Source: an uncultured Kiritimatiellota bacterium (GTDB lineage Bacteria; Verrucomicrobiota; Kiritimatiellia; RFP12; DVOR01). Taken from it: 39,570 bases of DNA. Below are positions 1-39,570 of this stretch, in pieces. The stretch lies in contig CALXMT010000023.1 in the NCBI GenBank assembly GCA_944389545.1, forward strand, positions 1 through 39,570. Reading direction: 5' to 3'. The notes under the pieces are model-generated. The model did no database searches, was not told the origin of the DNA, and saw only the letters and a program-made list of their open reading frames with translations. The position numbers and the translations under genes were made by a program. Each line of letters starts with the position of its first letter. Position 1 is the first letter of the stretch.

Positions 1-500
1 TCCGTGGCTCCTCCAAGCCTCCAAACTTCCAAGTTTCCATTGCGCCCCTTGCGTGCGCTAGCACGCCCAAAATCTGCTCAAAATCTGTGAGATACCGCAA
101 GGTCTTCCTAACGAAGCGACGGAACATCTGCGTTTCCCATTCTGGCAGTCCTTTGTGTCCTTTGTGTTCCTTTGTGTTCCTTTGTGTCCTTTGTGGTAGC
201 CGCGCAGCGTCCGGCTTCATCGCTGCCAAGGGCGGCGGCTCGCGCTCCAACCTCCGTGGCTCCTCCAAGCCTCCAAACTTCCAAGTTTCCATTGCGCCCC
301 TTGCGTGCGCTAGCACGCCCAAAATCTGCATCAATCTGCGTTTCCCATTCTGGCAGTCCTTGTGTCCTTTGTGTTCCTTTGTGTCCTTTGTGGTAGCCGC
401 GCAGCGTCCGGCTTCATCGCCGCCAAGGGCGGCGGCTCGGGCTCCAACCTCCGTGGCTCCTCCAAGCCTCCAAGCCTCCAAACTTCCAACCGGACATTAT
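1..500 (+). repeat. Tandem copies of dispersed intergenic repeat (family A)
   Basis: Two near-identical copies start at 131 and 339 (208-bp offset), and the 3' end of a third occupies the first ~60 bases. Each copy runs from CGTTTCCCATTCTGGCAGTC through a (TTTGTGTCC)-like tract, a hairpin around GCCGCCAAGGGCGGCGGC, and a tail of repeated CTCCAAGCCTCCAAACTTCC, followed by a small GCGTGCGCTAGCACGC palindrome and AAATCTGC units. Relatives occur near 8411 (inverted), 10601, 11052, 19975 and 23399. Open frames through it translate only the repeat and are not genes. Confidence 0.85.
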
Positions 501-525
501 TGATTTCCGTTAGAACAGGGGTTTG

Positions 526-534
526 TGATAAACT
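526..534 (+). promoter_or_regulatory. Extended -10 promoter element (TGA-TAAACT)
   Basis: TGATAAACT fits the TGN-TAnnnT extended -10 form seen before other genes here. It ends 7 nt before the ATG at 542, so transcription would start at or next to the start codon. No Shine-Dalgarno sequence is visible, which fits a leaderless mRNA. This is inferred from position and similarity only. Confidence 0.45.
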
Positions 535-541
535 ACAGTTT

Positions 542-3500
542 ATGAGACTTGTACTTTTCTTCTCCGCCGTTCTCCTTGCCGCCACTGCCGTGGCGCAGGG
601 AACCACATCCACCGACAAGGACCTCACGCCCACCGATGTCCTCGCCCAGTTGCCGGACTTCCCCAAGCACTGGAACCAGGCGCACCTCTACAACCAGGTC
701 ATCCGCGATGAGTATGGCAACGGCGCCCCCGCCGGGTGCGTGGCCGTCGCCGGCGCGGCCTGCATGGATTGGTTCCACTATCCCGCACAGTTCGGTGAAA
801 AGAAATACAACGCCACCGGGCGCGAACTGCGCACGGAGCCGCTCGACTGGGCGCGCCTGGCGCCGGAGCCGTTGGACGCGCGGGGCCGCCGCACAGCCCA
901 GACCATTCTCTACAACCTGGGCCTGCTCACCCAGATTCACTACGTCCAGGGCGGGTCCTCCACCACGCCGTTGGTCTATCTCGCCGCCGCACTGAAAGAC
1001 CCTGCGGTTGGCTACGCCAGCGCCTACTACGTTGAGTTCGGCTCGGGTGCCACGGATGCGGACGTCGAGACCGCCATCTGGGCCTCGCTCCGTTGTGGTT
1101 CGCCAGTGGCGATGAGTATCGAGCGCGATGGCGGCGCCCACGCCGTCGTCGCCACAGGCTGCGGCACCGATGAGAACGGCGCCCCTCTCACGCAGGTCTT
1201 CGGCGGCTACGGCTCCAACCCCACGTGGATGGACGTGCCCACCAACATGCCCATCCCCGGCGGTTACACCTACTCGCGGCTCGCCTCCGTCGTCACCGGC
1301 ATTGTCCCCACCGCGCCCGAAGGTATCTCCGGCGCGGCCCTTCCCGTCCTCGGCACCGTGGTAGACAAAAACAACAACCCCATCCCCTTCGCCAAGGTCA
1401 CCCTCTCCATCGGCGACCAAATCGTCGCCGAGACCGCCACCGACCTGCAGGGCCGTTACGGCCTCTGGGGCTGGTTCGGCTATGACATGACCATTCAGGC
1501 AAGCATCTACACGATTGGCACCGACACCGCCCCCTCCGAAATCGTCAAACTTGACGCCCAACAGCACAACGGCACCACAGACTATCCGCTCCCGGGCATG
1601 CCCGCCCTCCGCGTCAAAGTCGGTGACCTGCGCGCCGCCATTGAAGCCTGTCAAAGCGAACTCAAAATCGACACGGATGTCTCCTCCGCCTCCCCCATCT
1701 ATACCGACCTAGAGACGGCCAAAAACGCGGCACAAAACACCAGCAACTCCAAAGGCATCCTCTGCCTCAACAGCGAGGACCCAGACCTCAAAGCAGCCTT
1801 CCGCAAGACCTCGGGTTACATCTTGCTCTACGCCGACCCGCGCCTCCCCGCCCCCTTCCCCGAGGTCAACTCCCTCCCCGATGTCCGCCTTTTCCGCCTC
1901 GATGCCTCCGGGACCATCACTGATTATAGTACAACTGCGACCAGCAACAATTTAACGGGAGGCCTTGGGCCTCTCCAGTCTCGCGCCATCCGAACAGAAG
2001 AATTTTATATTACGGATGCTACTTGGAATGCCGATGATGTTGACGTGAGACATACAAGTACCGCAACCGTCACAACTGATGCACGCCTCGCCACGCTCAC
2101 TATTGGCAGACCTGTTATCTTCAAAGGCGAAGGAACCATCACTTGGGCCAACCTTAACCAAAAAGACTCCATCACCCTCGACGGCCCCAACTTCCGTTAC
2201 GTGGTGCCGAAGAAGAATGGATTGGAGTCTTATCTCTGCAAATCCGTGACCGTGCAGAACGGTGCGGAACTCTACTTCGGTGCCGGTGATGTCTCCGGTT
2301 ATGGTTATACGACGAAGAGGGATGCCCCCACCATCACCATCGGTCCCGGCGGCATTCTTTGTGTCGTCGCCAGAGACACCCTGGCGCGGCGGCTCATCTT
2401 GGACGGCGGCCATATTGACCTGGGTAACCGCGACACCTCCGGAGATTACGGCTTCGGTTCCCTTGACCTCCTGCACACGATTGTTGAGGTGAAGGGTAAT
2501 TCCTCTGTCTCTGCCCTCTCCGGCGTCGGCAACGCCGCCCTCTGCATCCGCGGCAACAGCGACGAAAGCGAAGAAAACAAAATCGACACGGAGTTCCAGT
2601 TCTCCAACGGTGCACGTTTGGATTGCCCCGTCTTGGTGGCTAAACCCAAACAAGACGGCGACCAAGGCAAGCTCCTGCTTTCCGGAGACGGCGTGGCAGC
2701 CTTCGGCACCGTTGAGGCCCCCACGACGGCCTCCGATGGCGTGCTCTTGGAGGGTGGCACCTTCACCGGCGGGCTGTCGCTCACGGACGGCGCACGGCTG
2801 ACCACGGAAGCGCCCATCACCGTCACAGGCACACTCACCGTCTCCGGCACGGTCTCCATCGAAGAGCCCCGCTCCGGCGTCTTCCTGCACGGTAACGCCA
2901 ACACGACTGTCGCGACCTCGGCCTTTACCGCACCAAATGGGTTCACCGTCAAGAAGGTCGGTAACGATTACCGCTTGGTGGCCTCCTCTGCCACCGACCC
3001 CGTGTGGTATGCCGATGGCGTGCGCGTGAAGGCCAAACCCGATGGCGCGGCTCCCGACAACTGCCTCCTCGTCCTTACCACCACAGACCGCAAGGAGAGC
3101 GGTCTGTGGGAAGGCTACGCCGCCTTTCGCTCCTCCCCCGCCGGCGGCGGCTGGAACGTCTGCATCGCCGCGAACGGCAATATCCCGGAAAATCAAACTG
3201 CCTCCGACTACATCCAATCCGCCGACTGTAAATACGTTCTCATCGGCGCCTCCGCCTCCGCTACCGAGATTCCCGCCCTCGCCGGTTCCCTTGATCGCCT
3301 CGACGGCTTCCACGTCGGCCGCCTCCCCCTCCGTGAAAGCATCAGCATGGGTACGGTGGAGGATCTCGGTAGTCTAGGCAACGGTGCTAAGCAGACGTAC
3401 GCGGATCGCATCGATGCCGAGTTGATTGAGGCCTACGTCGCCAAACTCCGTAAAGCCGGAGATAAACACGCATGCGGAAAGCTTTCCCTGCTCGGCGGAG

Positions 3501-4693
3501 GTTATGGAGTCCCAAATCCGTACAAGAACGACACCGACTTCACGCAGTGGGATGGATTGCCCTCCATCGAGGATGCAGAGGCGTGGACTAAGCCAACCTC
3601 TCGCGGACTCACCGTCTATGCCCTGCGTGACCGTTACCGCCTCTTCAAGGTGGCCGAGCCAGATGTCTTCCCTGACTTGACGCTCTATGACGACGTGACC
3701 ATCCCGCGTGGAACCGCGCCAAACGGTCTCGCGTATGGACGTGGTATCATCGGCAAAACCGACGGTGCCCTGCTTTGGGTGGAGGATCAGGGACGTCGTA
3801 ACCGCCTGAGTACCATCTGCGTCAATGGCACTGCCAATGGCACCGTCACTGCCGAGGCCATCCCGGGGCTCTATTCGCTAGTGGTGACGCCGTCTGGACA
3901 GAGCGGAGACTTCTCACAAGAAACTTCGCTGAGCGTAGGCGAAATGCTCGTGCTCAATCCGCAGGGTGGGGCGCTAACCGTGTTCGCACCCACCGGCACG
4001 GACGCAACCCTCACCGTCTCCGCCACGGGTATCCCTTCGAGTAACACGCACACCGTCTGCGCGGCGGTGGCCGAGGCCCTCATCGAAAATCCCACTCTCA
4101 CCGTCGGTCAAGCCCTCAACCAGGCACTCACGGATAATTCGGGGCTCTCCACCACCCTCACCCTCTTGGGCGACCCCACCGTGCGCGTCATGGCGTGGCC
4201 CGAGCCGGAGCCTCTCCTGCCCGAAGGTGCCACACTTGCAGAGGAGACGCTGGACGCCCTCCGTGCAGTAGCCGAGCAGGGCGGACTCTTTAAGGATTAT
4301 GAGGTCACAGTCACGAGCCTTAATGATGTGGAGCGACCCATCGCGGAATTGGACGACGCGTTGGCGTGCTTTGAGGGACTGGAGCCCACGGTGGAGAACG
4401 ACGACAAGGTGGTCGTAGCCTACGACTTCGGCGTCACGGGCCTCCGCATCGAAGGCGACACAGTGTTCGTCACCCTGTCCGTGCGCGGCAAGGGGCAGAC
4501 CCTCACCTTCGCCGAGGGCAACGCCTACGCCATCGCGCCGCAGAGCCTCGATGACACGCAGCCCCTCGCCGCGCCACCGACCGTCACGCCCTCCACACCA
4601 ACCGACGACGGCACGGTCGAGCTCCGCTTCTCCCTCCCCGAGGGCGACTCCACCTTCCTCTTCCGCGCCACCGTCTCCCGCCCCACGCCCTGA
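542..4693 (+). CDS. Secreted multidomain protein: C10 protease, carboxypeptidase-regulatory-like, beta-helix and degenerate C25-like domains
   Basis: The product is 1383 aa. The start at 542 is chosen because MRLVLFFSAVLLAATAVAQ is a clear signal peptide; the in-frame upstream extension is only repeat sequence. Residues ~40-250 match peptidase family C10 (streptopain): GAPAGCVAVAG gives the nucleophile Cys66 and GGAHAVVATG gives His200, followed by the Gly-rich FGGYGSNPTW. No long pro-region is present. Residues ~265-335 look like a carboxypeptidase-regulatory-like beta-sandwich (GTVVDKNNNPIPFAKVTL). Residues ~500-800 are Gly/Thr-rich beta-helix-like. Residues ~817-1218 follow the gingipain (C25) fold order (YVLIGAS, GFHVGRLPL, PQGGALTVFAPTG, LGDPTVRV) but lack recognisable catalytic His and Cys. 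Residues 1271-1383 resemble the C-terminus of the LamG protein at 12911-16279. Likely an extracellular or surface hydrolase; the domain calls come from motifs, not a profile search. Confidence 0.8.
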   Translation: MRLVLFFSAVLLAATAVAQGTTSTDKDLTPTDVLAQLPDFPKHWNQAHLYNQVIRDEYGNGAPAGCVAVAGAACMDWFHYPAQFGEKKYNATGRELRTEPLDWARLAPEPLDARGRRTAQTILYNLGLLTQIHYVQGGSSTTPLVYLAAALKDPAVGYASAYYVEFGSGATDADVETAIWASLRCGSPVAMSIERDGGAHAVVATGCGTDENGAPLTQVFGGYGSNPTWMDVPTNMPIPGGYTYSRLASVVTGIVPTAPEGISGAALPVLGTVVDKNNNPIPFAKVTLSIGDQIVAETATDLQGRYGLWGWFGYDMTIQASIYTIGTDTAPSEIVKLDAQQHNGTTDYPLPGMPALRVKVGDLRAAIEACQSELKIDTDVSSASPIYTDLETAKNAAQNTSNSKGILCLNSEDPDLKAAFRKTSGYILLYADPRLPAPFPEVNSLPDVRLFRLDASGTITDYSTTATSNNLTGGLGPLQSRAIRTEEFYITDATWNADDVDVRHTSTATVTTDARLATLTIGRPVIFKGEGTITWANLNQKDSITLDGPNFRYVVPKKNGLESYLCKSVTVQNGAELYFGAGDVSGYGYTTKRDAPTITIGPGGILCVVARDTLARRLILDGGHIDLGNRDTSGDYGFGSLDLLHTIVEVKGNSSVSALSGVGNAALCIRGNSDESEENKIDTEFQFSNGARLDCPVLVAKPKQDGDQGKLLLSGDGVAAFGTVEAPTTASDGVLLEGGTFTGGLSLTDGARLTTEAPITVTGTLTVSGTVSIEEPRSGVFLHGNANTTVATSAFTAPNGFTVKKVGNDYRLVASSATDPVWYADGVRVKAKPDGAAPDNCLLVLTTTDRKESGLWEGYAAFRSSPAGGGWNVCIAANGNIPENQTASDYIQSADCKYVLIGASASATEIPALAGSLDRLDGFHVGRLPLRESISMGTVEDLGSLGNGAKQTYADRIDAELIEAYVAKLRKAGDKHACGKLSLLGGGYGVPNPYKNDTDFTQWDGLPSIEDAEAWTKPTSRGLTVYALRDRYRLFKVAEPDVFPDLTLYDDVTIPRGTAPNGLAYGRGIIGKTDGALLWVEDQGRRNRLSTICVNGTANGTVTAEAIPGLYSLVVTPSGQSGDFSQETSLSVGEMLVLNPQGGALTVFAPTGTDATLTVSATGIPSSNTHTVCAAVAEALIENPTLTVGQALNQALTDNSGLSTTLTLLGDPTVRVMAWPEPEPLLPEGATLAEETLDALRAVAEQGGLFKDYEVTVTSLNDVERPIAELDDALACFEGLEPTVENDDKVVVAYDFGVTGLRIEGDTVFVTLSVRGKGQTLTFAEGNAYAIAPQSLDDTQPLAAPPTVTPSTPTDDGTVELRFSLPEGDSTFLFRATVSRPTP

Positions 4694-4734
4694 CCCAACA
4701 GAGTCTGGGGAAGTTTTACCGCGAAGACGGTTTG

Positions 4735-4796
4735 GCGTGGAAACCCTGCGGGCTCCATCGCTCCCGTTGGTCGCGCCGCCCTTGGGATTTCCACGC
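4735..4796 (+). repeat. 62-bp palindromic element (family E), copy 1
   Basis: The element begins GCGTGGAAACCC and ends GGGATTTCCACGC, terminal arms complementary apart from one extra base. A copy of the same 62-bp length lies at 39498-39559, and both lie just downstream of a plus-strand stop codon after a similar AGTTTT-CCGCGAAGACG lead-in. It could fold as a transcript 3'-end hairpin, but no T-run follows. Confidence 0.75.
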
Positions 4797-4808
4797 TATC
4801 GCGCCAAA

Positions 4809-6452: not shown

Positions 6453-8171
6453 ATGTTCATCTATCGTTTCTCCCGCCTGATCCAAAGTAAATTGTTGTGG
6501 GGCCTTTTGGCCCTCTTGATGGTCTTCGCCTTCGTGGTGGCCGATTCCTGCTCCGGCATGGGCGGGGCCGGCGGCTACCAGCGCGCCGATGAGACCATCA
6601 CCCCCAAGACCTACGAACAAGCCTCCCGCACCGTGGGCACGCTGACGAACAACGACCTCATCGGCATCACCCCGGAGGGTCAACTCTACTCCCTGTTGCC
6701 GCGCGGCTCGGATGTGTTGCGCTACGCCCTCTCCGTCAGCGAGCCCCAGTCCAGCACCGGCAATCCCAACACCCAGCGCCTGATTTGGAAGCTCCTCGCC
6801 GCGCGTCAGCTGGCTGACCGCTTCGACCTGACGCAGGGCGGGAAGAACGCCGCCAAGCAGATGATCGAGACCTCCTACAGGGACGCCCAGGGCGCCTTCA
6901 ACCAAGAGGCCTACCAGCAGTTCTGGATCCAGGCGAACTTCCCCAACCCCGCCGAGTTCGAGCAGCTCTACTCCGACACCTGGCTCCCCGCCCAGGCCGC
7001 GACCGCCGCCGTCTTCAAGTCGGTCGGCTGGCTCACGCCCATGGAGCGCGACTTCATGCTCTCTGTCCTCTTCGATGAGACCACGGCCTACACCGTGACA
7101 CTCAAGAACACCGCCAAGCCCGAAGACATCGCGCTTGACGATGCCGCGCTCAAGGCTTGGTACGACGCGAACCAAGAGCGTTACCGCCGCCCCGAAGAGC
7201 GCACCATCGCCTACTTCGAGATTCCCTCCTCCACCTTCCTCAAATCCGGGGAACCCTCCGAAGAAGAGGAAATCGAGGCGATGCAGTATCACGCCGACCA
7301 CATGGACGAGTTCAAGGATCCCTCCAGCACCAACGCCACCGAGTCGGTCACCTACGAGGCTGTCCGCGACCAGGTGTTGGCCAAGGTGCGCGCCAACGAT
7401 GCCTTGAGCGAGGCCCACACCATCGCCAACGGGACGATTATCCCCAAGATCGAGCTCTCCTCCTTCGAGGAAGTCGCCAAGGCCTATGGCGGCATGAAGA
7501 CCGCCACCCTCACGCAGACCGGCTGGCCCGTCGGCTTCCAGAATGCCATGGACGTGCGCGAGCGCGCCTTCGGCCTGGAGCTGGGCAGCGAAATGGTCCG
7601 TGACGTGGTGGACGGCACCGACCGCGTCTACATCATCCAGTTGACCGGCATCCGCGAGTCCGACATCCGTCCCTTTGAAGAGGTCAAGGAGCAAGTCACC
7701 ACCGCCTGCCGCGCCGCAAAGGTGCGCGAACAGGCCCTCGCCAAGGGCTCCACCCTCCGCGACACCCTCGCCAAGGCCCTCGCCGAAGGCAAGTCCTTCA
7801 CGGATGCCGTGGCCGCCTGCAAGGATGAAAACCTCACCGCCAGCACGGCGCTGACCTTCACCCTCTCCGATTCCTCCACCTACCAGCAGACCCCCTATCG
7901 TGCGCAGGTCTTCGATGCGGCGCGCAACCTCGGCGCCGGCACGCTCTCCGAGCCGACCGTGGTGGGCAACAACGACGTCCTCCTGGTCTACATCGCCTCG
8001 CGTGTGGAGAAGGATCCGCTCAAGAAAACCGAGCAGGCCGCCATCCTCACCCAGCAAATGACCATGGAATCCGCCCTCCTGACCTCCGGCGACTGGCTCT
8101 CTTGGGCCATCAAGACCAGCCAGCCCAAGGATCCCAATGGTGTCCCCGTCAACTTGGACATCACCGAGTAA
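6453..8171 (+). CDS. Membrane-anchored SurA/PpiD-like peptidyl-prolyl isomerase
   Basis: The product is 572 aa. The start at 6453 opens MFIYRFSRLIQSKLLWGLLA, a short cytoplasmic N-tail and one membrane segment (~14-32), the topology of PpiD. Residues ~60-260 are helical with spaced Gln/Ala/Phe, like the SurA N-terminal chaperone domain. Residues ~350-440 (YGGMKTATLTQTGWPVGF to RVYIIQLTGIRESDIRPFEE) follow the end of a parvulin-type domain, where a Val-Tyr-Ile-Ile-Gln-Leu strand leads into a Pro-Phe-Glu-Glu helix. A further helical part follows. The expected role is folding of secreted and outer-membrane proteins in the periplasm. The parvulin core is divergent, so chaperone activity is safer than isomerase activity. 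The gene follows an exported-protein gene and ends at a strong terminator. Confidence 0.75.
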   Translation: MFIYRFSRLIQSKLLWGLLALLMVFAFVVADSCSGMGGAGGYQRADETITPKTYEQASRTVGTLTNNDLIGITPEGQLYSLLPRGSDVLRYALSVSEPQSSTGNPNTQRLIWKLLAARQLADRFDLTQGGKNAAKQMIETSYRDAQGAFNQEAYQQFWIQANFPNPAEFEQLYSDTWLPAQAATAAVFKSVGWLTPMERDFMLSVLFDETTAYTVTLKNTAKPEDIALDDAALKAWYDANQERYRRPEERTIAYFEIPSSTFLKSGEPSEEEEIEAMQYHADHMDEFKDPSSTNATESVTYEAVRDQVLAKVRANDALSEAHTIANGTIIPKIELSSFEEVAKAYGGMKTATLTQTGWPVGFQNAMDVRERAFGLELGSEMVRDVVDGTDRVYIIQLTGIRESDIRPFEEVKEQVTTACRAAKVREQALAKGSTLRDTLAKALAEGKSFTDAVAACKDENLTASTALTFTLSDSSTYQQTPYRAQVFDAARNLGAGTLSEPTVVGNNDVLLVYIASRVEKDPLKKTEQAAILTQQMTMESALLTSGDWLSWAIKTSQPKDPNGVPVNLDITE

Positions 8172-8189
8172 GTGACCCCATGTTCTCCC

Positions 8190-8219
8190 AAAAGGGCCCG
8201 CCACGCGGGCCCTTTTTTT
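8190..8219 (+). terminator. Rho-independent terminator
   Basis: AAAGGGCCCGC (8191-8201) pairs perfectly with GCGGGCCCTTT (8205-8215) around a CAC loop, followed by more Ts. It lies 20 bp after the PPIase-like gene's stop and closes that operon. Confidence 0.93.
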
Positions 8220-8247
8220 GTGTCTAAGGCTTGAAATCCCTGTCCGC

Positions 8248-8393
8248 ACCCTATAAGGGTCGCCCTCAGACCCTATAAGGGTTGACCATGGACCACTATA
8301 GGGGTCGACATCGGACCCTTATAGGGTCTCATAGCGGACCCCTATAGGGTCTCACCCCCGACCCTTATAGGGTCTCATCACCCACCCTTAAGG
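8248..8393. repeat. Array of seven 13-bp palindromes at 22-23-bp spacing (family F)
   Basis: Units of the form ACCCNTATAGGGT or ACCCTATAAGGGT start at 8248, 8270, 8292, 8315, 8338, 8361 and 8384; the last is partial. Arms ACCC(T)/(A)GGGT flank an A/T core and are joined by 9-10-bp spacers, several sharing GGTCTCAT-type flanks. Two decayed units recur at 39419-39451. The constant two-helical-turn spacing puts every palindrome on one face of the DNA, as in operator, iteron or partition-site arrays. The function is unknown. Confidence 0.85.
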
Positions 8394-8410
8394 CCTCCGC
8401 AGAAAATGCA

Positions 8411-8552
8411 GGCGGTTTGGAAGCTTGGAAGTTTGGAGGTTTGGAAGCTTGGAGGAGCCACGGAGGTTTAAGCCCGAGCCGCCGCCCTTGGCGGCGATGA
8501 AGCCTCACGCTGCGCAACTACCACAAAGAACAAGGGGCGCGCTAGCGCCCCA
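8411..8552 (-). repeat. Inverted family A repeat copy
   Basis: GGAAGTTTGGAGGTTTGGAA and GCCGCCCTTGGCGGCGATGA are the reverse complement of the family A tail and hairpin seen at 131-500. The copy ends in a GGGGCGCGCTAGCGCCCC hairpin (~8534-8551), just upstream of the S1 gene promoter. Confidence 0.75.
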
Positions 8553-8574
8553 CCTTTTCTAGAGGCGCGGGTTT

Positions 8575-8583
8575 TGGTAGAAT
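8575..8583 (+). promoter_or_regulatory. Extended -10 element of the S1 gene (TGG-TAGAAT)
   Basis: TGGTAGAAT fits the window's recurring TGN-TAnnnT form. It leaves a ~25-nt leader containing the ribosome-binding site AGAGGAG before the ATG at 8614. No good -35 is visible. Confidence 0.5.
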
Positions 8584-8613
8584 ACGCCCCGTTTTTGCTA
8601 GAAGAGGAGTACC

Positions 8614-9807
8614 ATGAAGGATTCCAAAGCCGATTTCGCCGCCCTGCTCGCCGCCAGCGGGATGGATTACCGCCGCGGGTTCAACCCCGGTGAAGAAGTG
8701 CGCGCCACCGTCGTTTCCACCAAGGGCCACTATGTGGTGATTGACGTGGGTGCGAAGGACGAAGGCGTGGTGCCCAAAGAGGAGTTCATCCTGGAGGATG
8801 GCACGCTCCGCGCGAAAGAGGGCGAGCGCCTCACGGTGTGGTTCGTCGGCATGCGCCAGGGCAACCTACTCTTCACGGCCCGCAACAAGGCCACGGGCCG
8901 CGGCGACGCGGCGCTCCGCCAGGCCTTCGAGGCCGGCACGCCCATCGATGGCCTGGTGAAGGGCGAGGTGAAGGGCGGCTACGAAGTGGAAGTGGCCGGC
9001 CAGCGCGCCTTCTGCCCCTACTCCCAGATGGATCTCCACCGCGCCAAGGACGCCGCGGAGTACATCGGCACCAAGCAAACCTTCCTCATCTCCGAGTATG
9101 GCGAGGACGACCGCGGGAGCAACCTCATCGTGTCGCGCCGGGCCCTGCTCGAGCGTGAGCGCAACGCCAAGAAGGGCGCCCTGCTGGCCGAACTGGCCGA
9201 GGGGCAGGTCCGCGAGGGCACCGTCACGCGCGTGATGGACTTCGGCGTCTTCGTCGACCTCGGCGGCGCGGAGGGCCTGGTGCCCACGCGCGAGATGTCC
9301 TGGGACCGCGGTGCGAAGCCCGAAGACCTGGCCAAGCCCGGCGACACCGTGGAGGTGCTGGTGCAGCACTTCGACCCCGTCACCGAGCGCATCTCCCTCT
9401 CCCTGCGCGCCCTGCGCCAGAACCCCTGGGAAGCCTTCGCCGCGCAGTACCGCGTGGGTGACGTGCTCAACGCGAAGATCGTCCGCATCACCACCTTCGG
9501 CGCCTTCGCCCAGCTCACCCCCGGCGTGGACGGCCTGCTCTCGAACGGCCGCCTGGCCGCCCTGGCCAAGGGCCGCCGCATCGCCTCCGCCCACGAGGTC
9601 GTGGAAGAGGGCCAGACCCTTGAAGTGAAGATCGAGTCCATCGACGCCAACGAGCACAAGATCGCCCTCAAACCCGTCACCGCCGAGGAGCCCGTCAAGG
9701 ACGCCCCCGCGAACGACCCCGACAGCGACCCCTCCGCCTGGATCCGCGCCAACCGCGCCAAGAACGCCGGACTGGGGAACAATCCCTTCGCGGGGCTCAA
9801 CCTTTGA
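8614..9807 (+). CDS. S1-domain RNA-binding protein (short ribosomal protein S1-like)
   Basis: The product is 397 aa, started by ATG with AGAGGAG 7 nt upstream. Four S1/OB-fold repeats are visible: ~24-95 (GEEVRATVVSTKGHYVVIDV), ~108-176 (a degenerate repeat with GYEVEVAGQRAFCPYSQMD), ~195-264 (VREGTVTRVMDFGVFVDLGG, the most canonical) and ~280-350 (LNAKIVRITTFGAFAQLTPG). Such proteins bind single-stranded mRNA at the ribosome and help initiation. Proteobacterial S1 has six domains and ~557 residues, so this is a shortened form; it could be the only S1 of the organism or an accessory paralogue. A small gene overlaps its stop codon. Confidence 0.85.
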   Translation: MKDSKADFAALLAASGMDYRRGFNPGEEVRATVVSTKGHYVVIDVGAKDEGVVPKEEFILEDGTLRAKEGERLTVWFVGMRQGNLLFTARNKATGRGDAALRQAFEAGTPIDGLVKGEVKGGYEVEVAGQRAFCPYSQMDLHRAKDAAEYIGTKQTFLISEYGEDDRGSNLIVSRRALLERERNAKKGALLAELAEGQVREGTVTRVMDFGVFVDLGGAEGLVPTREMSWDRGAKPEDLAKPGDTVEVLVQHFDPVTERISLSLRALRQNPWEAFAAQYRVGDVLNAKIVRITTFGAFAQLTPGVDGLLSNGRLAALAKGRRIASAHEVVEEGQTLEVKIESIDANEHKIALKPVTAEEPVKDAPANDPDSDPSAWIRANRAKNAGLGNNPFAGLNL

Positions 9808-37523: not shown

Positions 37524-39410
37524 ATGATCATCCTCCCCACCGAGCGCAAGACCTTCCGCGCCAGGCTCATCCTGGCCGTCATCTACCTGGTCCTCGCCCT
37601 CGGCGCCCTCACGATGGTCTGGCCCTTCCTCATGATGGTCGCCGGCTCCATGTCCGGCCGCTTCGACTACGACCGCCACTCCCCCCTCCTCACCTCCGTC
37701 TGGACCCCCGAGGGCCGCTTCGTCCGCGTCCTCTCCTCCTTCCACCCCGCCTTCCCAAAAAACACCTTCCCCAACGCCCCCGCCGACTGGACCGCCTGGT
37801 CCGCCATCGCCGAGGACCCCGAGGCCATCCGCGCCTTCGCCCGACCGTGGATCGACGGCATGGACGACCCCGCGACCGCCGCCGCCTGGCGCACCATGGC
37901 CCAAGACTACGCCGACTTCAACCGCGCCTACGACGTCCGCAACTCCGTCTGTTCCTACGACGAGCGCGACGTCGCCCCCTACGTCCGCGCGACCTTCGAG
38001 GCCAAAACCGGCCACCAAAGCGAACAGGCCGCCCTCGACGAACTCAACCGCACCTGGGACATCCGCTACAACTCCTTCCACGCCATCCGCTTCCGCGCCC
38101 AGTCACGCGTCCCCCTCCACTATCCCGACTGGGATTGGCCCGACGACCCCAAGACCGCCCTCTGGCAAGCCTTCAAGGCCCACTGCCGCGACGTCCCCTA
38201 CCCCTACGCGCGCACCCGCCCCTACCGCCTCGCCCCCCGCTGGACCCGTTGGCGCGCCCAGCGCAACCTCGCCCCCGCCCCCTTCCCCGGCGACGACGCC
38301 GACCCCGCCTGGCGTGAATTCGTCACCACCGCCTACCCCCGCCGACTCCTCCGCGTCCGCATCAACCAAGAGACGCAGGCCGACTGGATCCGCTTCGTCC
38401 AAGCCCAAATCCGCTCCCCCGCCGACTACGAACGCCTCACCGGCCAAACCGCGCCCCACCGCCTCGCCGACATCCCCCTCAAGCCCTACGACAACACCCC
38501 CCTCTGGCGCGCCTTCGTCGCCACCCTCCCCTACGACGCCCTCATCGCCACCTCCGCCGAGGCCGATTGGCAGGCCTTCCTCAAGGCCCGCTACCGCACG
38601 CTCGACGCCCTCAACGCCGCCTACCGCGACGCCCACGGCGCCCCCTACGCCGCCACGGACTGGCGCGACGTCCCCCTTCCCCTCGCCCAGGCCTACGCCG
38701 TCACCTTCGCCGACCACGGCGCCGCCCTCCTCTGGCAAGACATCACCGCCAGCTACCGCACCGTCGTCGATGCCCTCTTCCTCCGCGGCCGCGCCTGGTG
38801 GAACACCCTCGTCCTCGTCCTGCTCACCATCCTCGCCACCCTCACCGTCAATCCCCTCGCCGCCTACGCGCTCTCCCGCTTCCGCCTCCCCCACACCGAA
38901 GGCATCCTCCTCTTCCTCCTGGCCACCATGGCCTTCCCCGCCGCCGTCACCGCCATCCCCGGCTTCCTCCTCATCCGCGAGCTCGGCCTCCTCAACACCT
39001 TCGCCGCCCTCGTCCTCCCCACCGTTGCCAACGGCCTCTCCATCTTCGTCCTCAAAGGCTTCTTCGACGCCCTCCCCCGCGAGCTCTACGAAGCCGCCAC
39101 CATCGACGGCGCCTCCGAGTGGCAAATCTTCCGCCACATCACCCTCCCCATGACCACCCCCATCCTCGCCGTCAACGCCCTCAACGCCTTCATCGCCGCC
39201 TACAACTCCTGGGAATGGGCCCTCCTCGTCTGCCAGCGCCAAAGCCATTGGACCCTCTCAGTCTGGCTCTACCAGATGAGCCAGACCTACGCCGGCACCC
39301 CCTGGGTCACCCTCGCCGGCTTCGTCCTCGTCTCCATCCCCACCGCCCTCGTCTTCCTCCTCTGCCAGCGCGTCATCCTCCGCGGCATCGTCCTCCCCTC
39401 CATGAAGTGA
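37524..39410 (+). CDS. Carbohydrate ABC transporter permease (MalG type) with ~375-residue insertion
   Basis: The product is 628 aa against ~280 for ordinary MalG-type permeases. The ATG at 37524 is 12 bp after the cca stop, with no good ribosome-binding site. Membrane segment 1 is at ~13-42 (LAVIYLVLALGALTMVWPFL). From ~45 to ~420 an extracytoplasmic insertion follows, containing three related blocks (near 153, 286 and 347) of the type W-x-A-F-x-A-R-Y, aLN, d-x-P-L. The rest is a normal binding-protein-dependent permease: NPLAAYALSRFRLP, FPAAVTAIPGFLLIRELGLL, and the EAA loop near 523 (EAATIDGASEWQIFRHITLP) that docks the ATPase. The partner permease, binding protein and ATPase are not in the window, though some may lie downstream. 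MalF's P2 loop is the nearest known analogue but is much smaller. Confidence 0.88.
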   Translation: MIILPTERKTFRARLILAVIYLVLALGALTMVWPFLMMVAGSMSGRFDYDRHSPLLTSVWTPEGRFVRVLSSFHPAFPKNTFPNAPADWTAWSAIAEDPEAIRAFARPWIDGMDDPATAAAWRTMAQDYADFNRAYDVRNSVCSYDERDVAPYVRATFEAKTGHQSEQAALDELNRTWDIRYNSFHAIRFRAQSRVPLHYPDWDWPDDPKTALWQAFKAHCRDVPYPYARTRPYRLAPRWTRWRAQRNLAPAPFPGDDADPAWREFVTTAYPRRLLRVRINQETQADWIRFVQAQIRSPADYERLTGQTAPHRLADIPLKPYDNTPLWRAFVATLPYDALIATSAEADWQAFLKARYRTLDALNAAYRDAHGAPYAATDWRDVPLPLAQAYAVTFADHGAALLWQDITASYRTVVDALFLRGRAWWNTLVLVLLTILATLTVNPLAAYALSRFRLPHTEGILLFLLATMAFPAAVTAIPGFLLIRELGLLNTFAALVLPTVANGLSIFVLKGFFDALPRELYEAATIDGASEWQIFRHITLPMTTPILAVNALNAFIAAYNSWEWALLVCQRQSHWTLSVWLYQMSQTYAGTPWVTLAGFVLVSIPTALVFLLCQRVILRGIVLPSMK

Positions 39411-39451: not shown

Positions 39452-39497
39452 CTCGCCCAATACTGTCCTGGGAAAGTTTTTCCGCGAAGACGACCTT

Positions 39498-39559
39498 GCG
39501 TGGAAACCCTGCGGGCTCCATCGCTCCCGTTGGTCGCGCCGCCCTTGGGATTTCCACGC
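39498..39559 (+). repeat. 62-bp palindromic element (family E), copy 2
   Basis: It is nearly identical to 4735-4796, from GCGTGGAAACCCTGCGGGCT to GGGATTTCCACGC, preceded by AGTTTTTCCGCGAAGACGAC. It follows the permease gene by ~90 bp; the window ends 11 bp later. Confidence 0.8.
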
Positions 39560-39570
39560 TATCGCGCCCC

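Follow-up and report, generated by a model that had tools for sequence, protein, structure and literature searches.

A MalG-type ABC permease encoded at the end of the 39,570-nucleotide stretch analysed here (the window) carries a large extracytoplasmic domain between its first two membrane helices. This domain, about 360 of the 628 residues of the protein (P0001), is predicted to be rigid and to consist of four beta-alpha-alpha-alpha units, and a small element is common to these units and to glycosidases. In relatives, the permease recurs together with a second protein in which a MalE-type binding protein is fused to a MalF-type permease. The repeat domain may dock this tethered binding protein over the pore, which we take as the most likely reading, at about even odds. 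The features of the gene are as follows.

37524-39407, forward strand: MalG-type ABC permease of 628 aa (P0001); open reading frame, PF00528 match and phmmer match to MalG 2r6g_G.
37554-37652, forward strand: first membrane helix, residues 11-43; AlphaFold2 helix 11-43, hydrophobic at 15-33, with the MalG alignment beginning at residue 11.
37653-38738, forward strand: predicted extracytoplasmic insertion, residues about 44-405; no internal hydrophobic segment, folds alone in the model, conserved in the family, in the order and beyond.
37692-37928, forward strand: N-terminal helical cap, residues 57-135; AlphaFold2 helices 57-60, 62-73, 92-96, 99-114 and 116-135.
37944-38189, forward strand: repeat unit 1, residues 141-222; strand 141-143, helices 147-161, 167-178 and 209-222, unit HMM match 169-192; kept in short forms.
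38214-38330, forward strand: repeat unit 2, residues 231-269, eroded in P0001; strand 231-233, helices 237-246 and 261-269.
38349-38519, forward strand: repeat unit 3, residues 276-332; strand 276-278, helices 282-295, 299-306 and 326-332, unit HMM match 286-309.
38541-38681, forward strand: repeat unit 4, GH42-like, residues 340-386; strand 340-342, helices 345-357 and 360-366, unit HMM match 345-391, PF02449 match.
38682-38783, forward strand: long helix 387-420 leading into TM2, with the canonical NYR region; AlphaFold2 helix 387-420.
38790-39404, forward strand: permease core, TM2 to TM6, residues 423-627; VIA match to MalG 3rlf_G.
39090-39167, forward strand: EAA coupling motif, residues 523-548 (EAATIDGASEWQIFRHITLPMTTPIL); read from the sequence and from alignments of 33 and 54 sequences.

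P0001 is a MalG-type permease and belongs to a type I ABC importer, whose substrates are most likely sugars. Residues 460-618 matched PF00528 (BPD_transp_1) at 53.5 bits against a curated cut-off of 26.4, and the closest PDB entry to the C-terminal part was MalG 2r6g_G (phmmer, E 2.5e-20). The MalG membrane fold was recovered in the P0001 model, which aligned to 3rlf_G over 260 residues with a Z of 16.5 in VIA. These results bear out the initial annotation, in which the protein had been called a MalG-type permease. The EAA coupling motif is present (EAATIDGASEWQIFRHITLP at 523-542) and is conserved in both alignments. Transport of a sugar is suggested by the family and by carbohydrate genes that lie beside some relatives (GH3, GH29 fucosidase, FGGY kinase and LacI regulator).

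Hydrophobic segments of P0001 were located at residues 15-33 and next at 424-442. Since none lies in between, the insertion was placed at about residues 44-405, and the unusually large extracytoplasmic insertion described in the initial annotation is thus confirmed. AlphaFold2 modelling of the full protein with 54 family members gave a pLDDT of 87.3 overall and roughly 90-98 over most of the insertion; residues 44-413 modelled alone with 37 sequences reached a pLDDT of 93.9 and a pTM of 0.91. In the model, a helical cap is followed by the four units, each of which opens with a three-residue strand and continues in helices. The invariant residues of the insertion (W89, W92, P233, W240, P255, P272 and E346) look more like structural positions than like one contact patch. 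The whole insertion gave no Foldseek match to PDB folds with E below 0.001 and no match in a viral fold library, and VIA returned single-unit matches only (best Z 5.5); absence of the whole insertion from these match lists is no proof of a new fold.

The modelled domain lies between TM1 and TM2, which corresponds to the TM3-TM4 position of MalF. MalF (9nxc_H, 56-511) was aligned to residues 8-621 of the model, across TM1, the insertion and the core, and the insertion site therefore appears equivalent to that of the MalF-P2 domain, which comprises MalF residues 91-271 (PMC3150292). A P2-like fold was not among the Foldseek and VIA matches listed for the insertion model, and this absence is likewise no proof.

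An internal repeat was detected independently of the model. A jackhmmer search started from the third block of the initial annotation alone matched residues 169-192, 286-309 and 345-391 of P0001, so that the three blocks noted there were recovered as units 1, 3 and 4. The same search against 83 insertions gave 165 matches of 10 bits or more, and zero matches in 20 rounds of shuffled insertions. Within P0001 itself units 1 and 3 score weakly (21.2 and 7.8 bits). Circularity was avoided by two tests, in which units were taken from orthologue columns, or the unit-4 profile was run against short forms that lack unit 4. In the first, profile-profile comparison of units from 28 orthologues related unit 2 to unit 3 (P 1.7e-8) and unit 3 to unit 4 (P 3.6e-5), and unit 1 had no match. 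In the second, the unit-4 profile matched unit 1 of the short forms with a best E of 1.7e-9. The proposed three-fold repeat thus stands as a repeat and is amended in number, as structure prediction gave a repeated fold with four units plus a helical cap. Unit 2 is shortened in P0001 but full length in longer homologues. The number of detectable units in relatives varies from 1 to 5, and arrays of up to five clear units, of the form YRxWLxxKYGTIxxLNxxYxxxYxSxDxIPLP, occur in more distant MalG-type relatives. Four such frames (L191, L192, L193 and L210) have 769-878 codons and five detectable units, and exceed P0001 by up to about 250 codons. Elsewhere in the genome of origin no significant copy of the unit was found (third hit E 0.35).

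The units resemble a segment of glycosidases. When a profile was made from 23 permease units and nothing else, 31 PDB sequences matched it with E no higher than 1. Of these, 30 were carbohydrate-active enzymes or, in the case of 6ptm, an 'uncharacterized protein'; the remaining one was an unrelated chain (E 0.93). The GH42 enzyme 1kwg scored best (E 2e-10, residues 158-195), and GH50, GH14, GH167 and beta-1,2-glucan enzymes were also matched. With a profile of the whole insertion, the same glycosidase families appeared at E 0.002-0.2. Unit 3 (residues 275-336) superposed on GlmA 5gsl over 60 residues at 2.2 A with a Z of 5.5 in VIA, followed by GH50 enzymes. This Z is modest by VIA's own note, and it was given weight because the sequence points to the same enzyme families. 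The matched part of GlmA, 190-258, begins just past its acid/base residue, Glu179 (PMC6566704). In Pfam, residues 343-405 of P0001 matched PF02449 (GH42) at positions 148-206 of 376 without reaching the cut-off of 21 bits (16.1 bits, E 0.0077). The relative L053 exceeds that cut-off with 29.2 bits, but over profile positions 148-196 only. By the permease-unit profile, the GH42 resemblance pointed out in the initial annotation is significant and non-circular. A complete glycosidase domain was considered and rejected, given the partial, sub-cut-off Pfam match in P0001 and a model without a barrel: apart from four isolated strands of three residues each, the insertion is mostly helical, with no eight-stranded TIM barrel. 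The GH42-matched segment starts after the acid/base strand, and there is no barrel to hold the catalytic glutamate pair. Common descent of the shared element over 33-60 residues is plausible, not proven.

This resemblance is the ground for the main rival to docking. The units could be carbohydrate-contacting modules that keep an oligosaccharide close to the pore, or steer it there, until the fused binding protein takes it over, and the domain would then be an extra substrate site and not a dock. The almost exclusive matching of glycosidases by the unit profile, the superposition of unit 3 on GlmA and GH50 enzymes beside the acid/base strand, and the carbohydrate genes adjoining some relatives are in keeping with such a role. 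The shared stretch, however, is just about 33-60 residues long, its recurring positions look like packing positions, and no known binding site is reproduced in the units. We consider sugar contact of this kind rather unlikely, and docking is retained as the preferred reading.

The permease with its insertion is widespread. In the genus, full-length forms with 71-99% identity were found in nine genomes besides the genome of origin, and fragments in others. P0001 had matches in 98 of the 162 genomes of the order (E 1e-15), and across the phylum the insertion profile matched 108 of 388 sampled genomes (67 of 199 genera), some of them with several copies. Named relatives come from gut and rumen Kiritimatiellae, Lentisphaeria/Victivallales and Armatimonadota/Fimbriimonas, and Oligosphaera ethanolica DSM 24202 (L189) is also among them. 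Short forms of about 470-520 aa have the cap and unit 1 only. As a separate feature, three relatives of the order families f6 and f3 (L056, L057 and L058) have, within the MalG-type core, a second insertion that is about 70 residues long and includes two hydrophobic stretches; its position near P0001 residue 485 was seen for L056 and L058.

Upstream of the P0001 gene lie genes for an enzyme of the poly(A)-polymerase/CCA type, a VWA-domain protein and SecA, and the gene is thus not part of a transport operon in this genome. About 160 bases beyond it the contig breaks off, inside a copy of an interspersed repeat. Two copies, at window positions 39468-39568 and 4705-4805, are 94% identical over 101 bases, and such repeats may be the reason for the contig break. 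The window also encodes a protein with Peptidase_C10 and Peptidase_C25 matches (362-4690) and an AAA-ATPase_like gene (PF09820; 27939-29519), and similar-looking genes to the latter occur elsewhere in the genome (L074:1-465 and 698-2341).

The insertion might be a sequence or assembly artefact, or a decayed domain without a role: no gene follows P0001 on its draft contig, whose end lies in an interspersed repeat, and unit 2 is eroded. This explanation is very improbable. Full-length forms without stops recur across many genomes, the insertion is 61-75% identical among close relatives, its fold is confidently predicted, and its conservation in the named genomes, the isolate Oligosphaera ethanolica among them, refutes it. 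An assembly join in particular was rejected since full-length relatives carry the insertion; close homologues keep it in the genus, in the order and in the named genomes.

The recurrent companion of the insertion permease is a single open reading frame in which SBP_bac_1 is followed by a BPD_transp_1 permease. Hydropathy indicated one extra membrane segment between its binding protein and permease core, and AlgM1 and SugA are collinear with the MalF part, which contains no insertion the size of P2. At many loci of Lentisphaeria and Armatimonadota the fusion gene, of about 870-1010 codons, lies directly upstream, with its end close to the MalG start or overlapping it. The pair is mostly unlinked in Kiritimatiellae, yet co-occurs there. 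The fusion was present in 104 of the 162 genomes of the order, in 87 of them together with the insertion permease; 17 genomes had the fusion only, 11 the MalG gene only and 47 neither, with a Fisher p of 3e-16 that is distorted by shared ancestry and incomplete genomes. Examples of the fusion, which is common in the order, are L080:8812-11589, L079:8276-10951, L189:4550-7429 (with the MalG gene of Oligosphaera ethanolica next at 7464-9425) and L136:4745-7429. In the genus, it adjoins type II secretion-like genes and not the MalG gene.

The genome of origin encodes a MalK homologue (62% identity over the full length), and no MalE-MalF fusion was found in its assembly, either by an SBP_bac_1 search or with the protein of a sibling genome. 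In this sibling (G010), whose permease is 99% identical, the fusion gene lies inside a block that is wholly missing from the assembly studied here. Searched as DNA against the genome of origin, the 7 kb block produced 174 matches, mostly short interspersed repeats, plus marginal stretches. Because the block was found only in this form, an assembly gap is probably the cause of the absence and is likelier than gene loss, which is not to say proved.

A functional importer would consist of the P0001 MalG-type subunit, the MalE-MalF fusion and a MalK-type ATPase encoded elsewhere. The fusion would contribute the binding protein, one extra membrane helix and a MalF core without a P2 loop, and the repeat domain would stand over the pore and dock the tethered binding protein. 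The insertion would in this way replace MalF-P2, so that the task which P2 performs on MalF in E. coli would fall to MalG, and the number of units (1 to 5 detectable in relatives) might adjust reach or geometry. We infer docking because the insertion lies at a site equivalent to that of MalF-P2, the MalF-type partner is without P2 and both proteins recur together. Against it stand the structural-looking invariant residues, the GH42-like motif, which could equally mean sugar binding, and the lack of a fusion in the assembly of origin. Since the short forms have lost all but the cap and unit 1, and a fusion gene is still present in many of their genomes, units 2-4 are not essential for any docking.

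A purely structural domain, which clamps or stabilises the permease heterodimer or ties it to another component of the envelope (an outer-membrane porin or peptidoglycan, for example), would also be conserved, show a confident fold and differ in its number of units, as for a spacer. Such a role appears distinctly improbable: no recurring porin or peptidoglycan-binding gene was seen among the neighbours in the contexts read (most neighbours are unannotated), and the recurrent companion that was found is the MalE-MalF fusion.

More broadly, it is possible, though doubtful, that a supersecondary element of a glycosidase barrel was taken up and multiplied into a tandem array on MalG, where it would form a ladder over the pore for oligosaccharide contact or docking, alongside a MalF-fused binding protein. 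In the sources searched, no MalG-type permease is described with such an extracytoplasmic architecture. If true, a maltose-type importer can be remodelled in its extracytoplasmic half, with MalE fused to MalF, P2 absent and a repeat domain on MalG. The relatives would then offer a natural series of domain lengths for testing the handover of a tethered binding protein to the pore, and the reuse of a short glycosidase-barrel element, repeated in tandem within a membrane protein, would be documented. The family is widespread in Kiritimatiellae, Lentisphaeria and Armatimonadota, gut and rumen lineages among them.

The importer type is known, as are fusions of binding protein and permease in other subfamilies. 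A repeat-built extracytoplasmic domain with a glycosidase-like unit on a MalG-type subunit was not found in Pfam, PDB folds or the open literature searched, and that literature held nothing on point for MalE-MalF fusions either. Compared with MalG of the E. coli maltose importer (MalFGK2-E, CUT1 type I), P0001 has the same permease core and EAA motif. E. coli MalG, however, is a protein of 296 aa with a short TM1-TM2 loop, where P0001 has its repeats. In the E. coli cycle, MalE makes contact with MalF as well as with MalG (PMC3150292). MalF-P2 and the P0001 domain are both large extracytoplasmic domains at an apparently equivalent site, but the latter belongs to the MalG-type and not the MalF-type subunit and is predicted to be built of mostly helical repeats.

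In GH42 beta-galactosidases (A4 beta-gal 1kwg), GlmA, GH50 agarases and GH14 amylases, a catalytic-barrel segment matches one unit of 33-60 residues by sequence, and in GlmA and GH50 the likeness is also structural. Unlike these enzymes, the P0001 domain has no barrel, carries the unit in tandem and is part of a membrane permease. OpuA is an importer fused to its substrate-binding protein (SBP), and both it and GlnPQ belong to other ABC subfamilies. In GlnPQ, the binding domain is covalently joined to the permease (PMC8025302). The MalE-MalF fusion of the relatives also joins a binding protein covalently to a permease; in contrast to GlnPQ and OpuA, the SBP is of MalE type and sits at the N-terminus of a CUT1 MalF core, with the repeat domain located on the other permease subunit.
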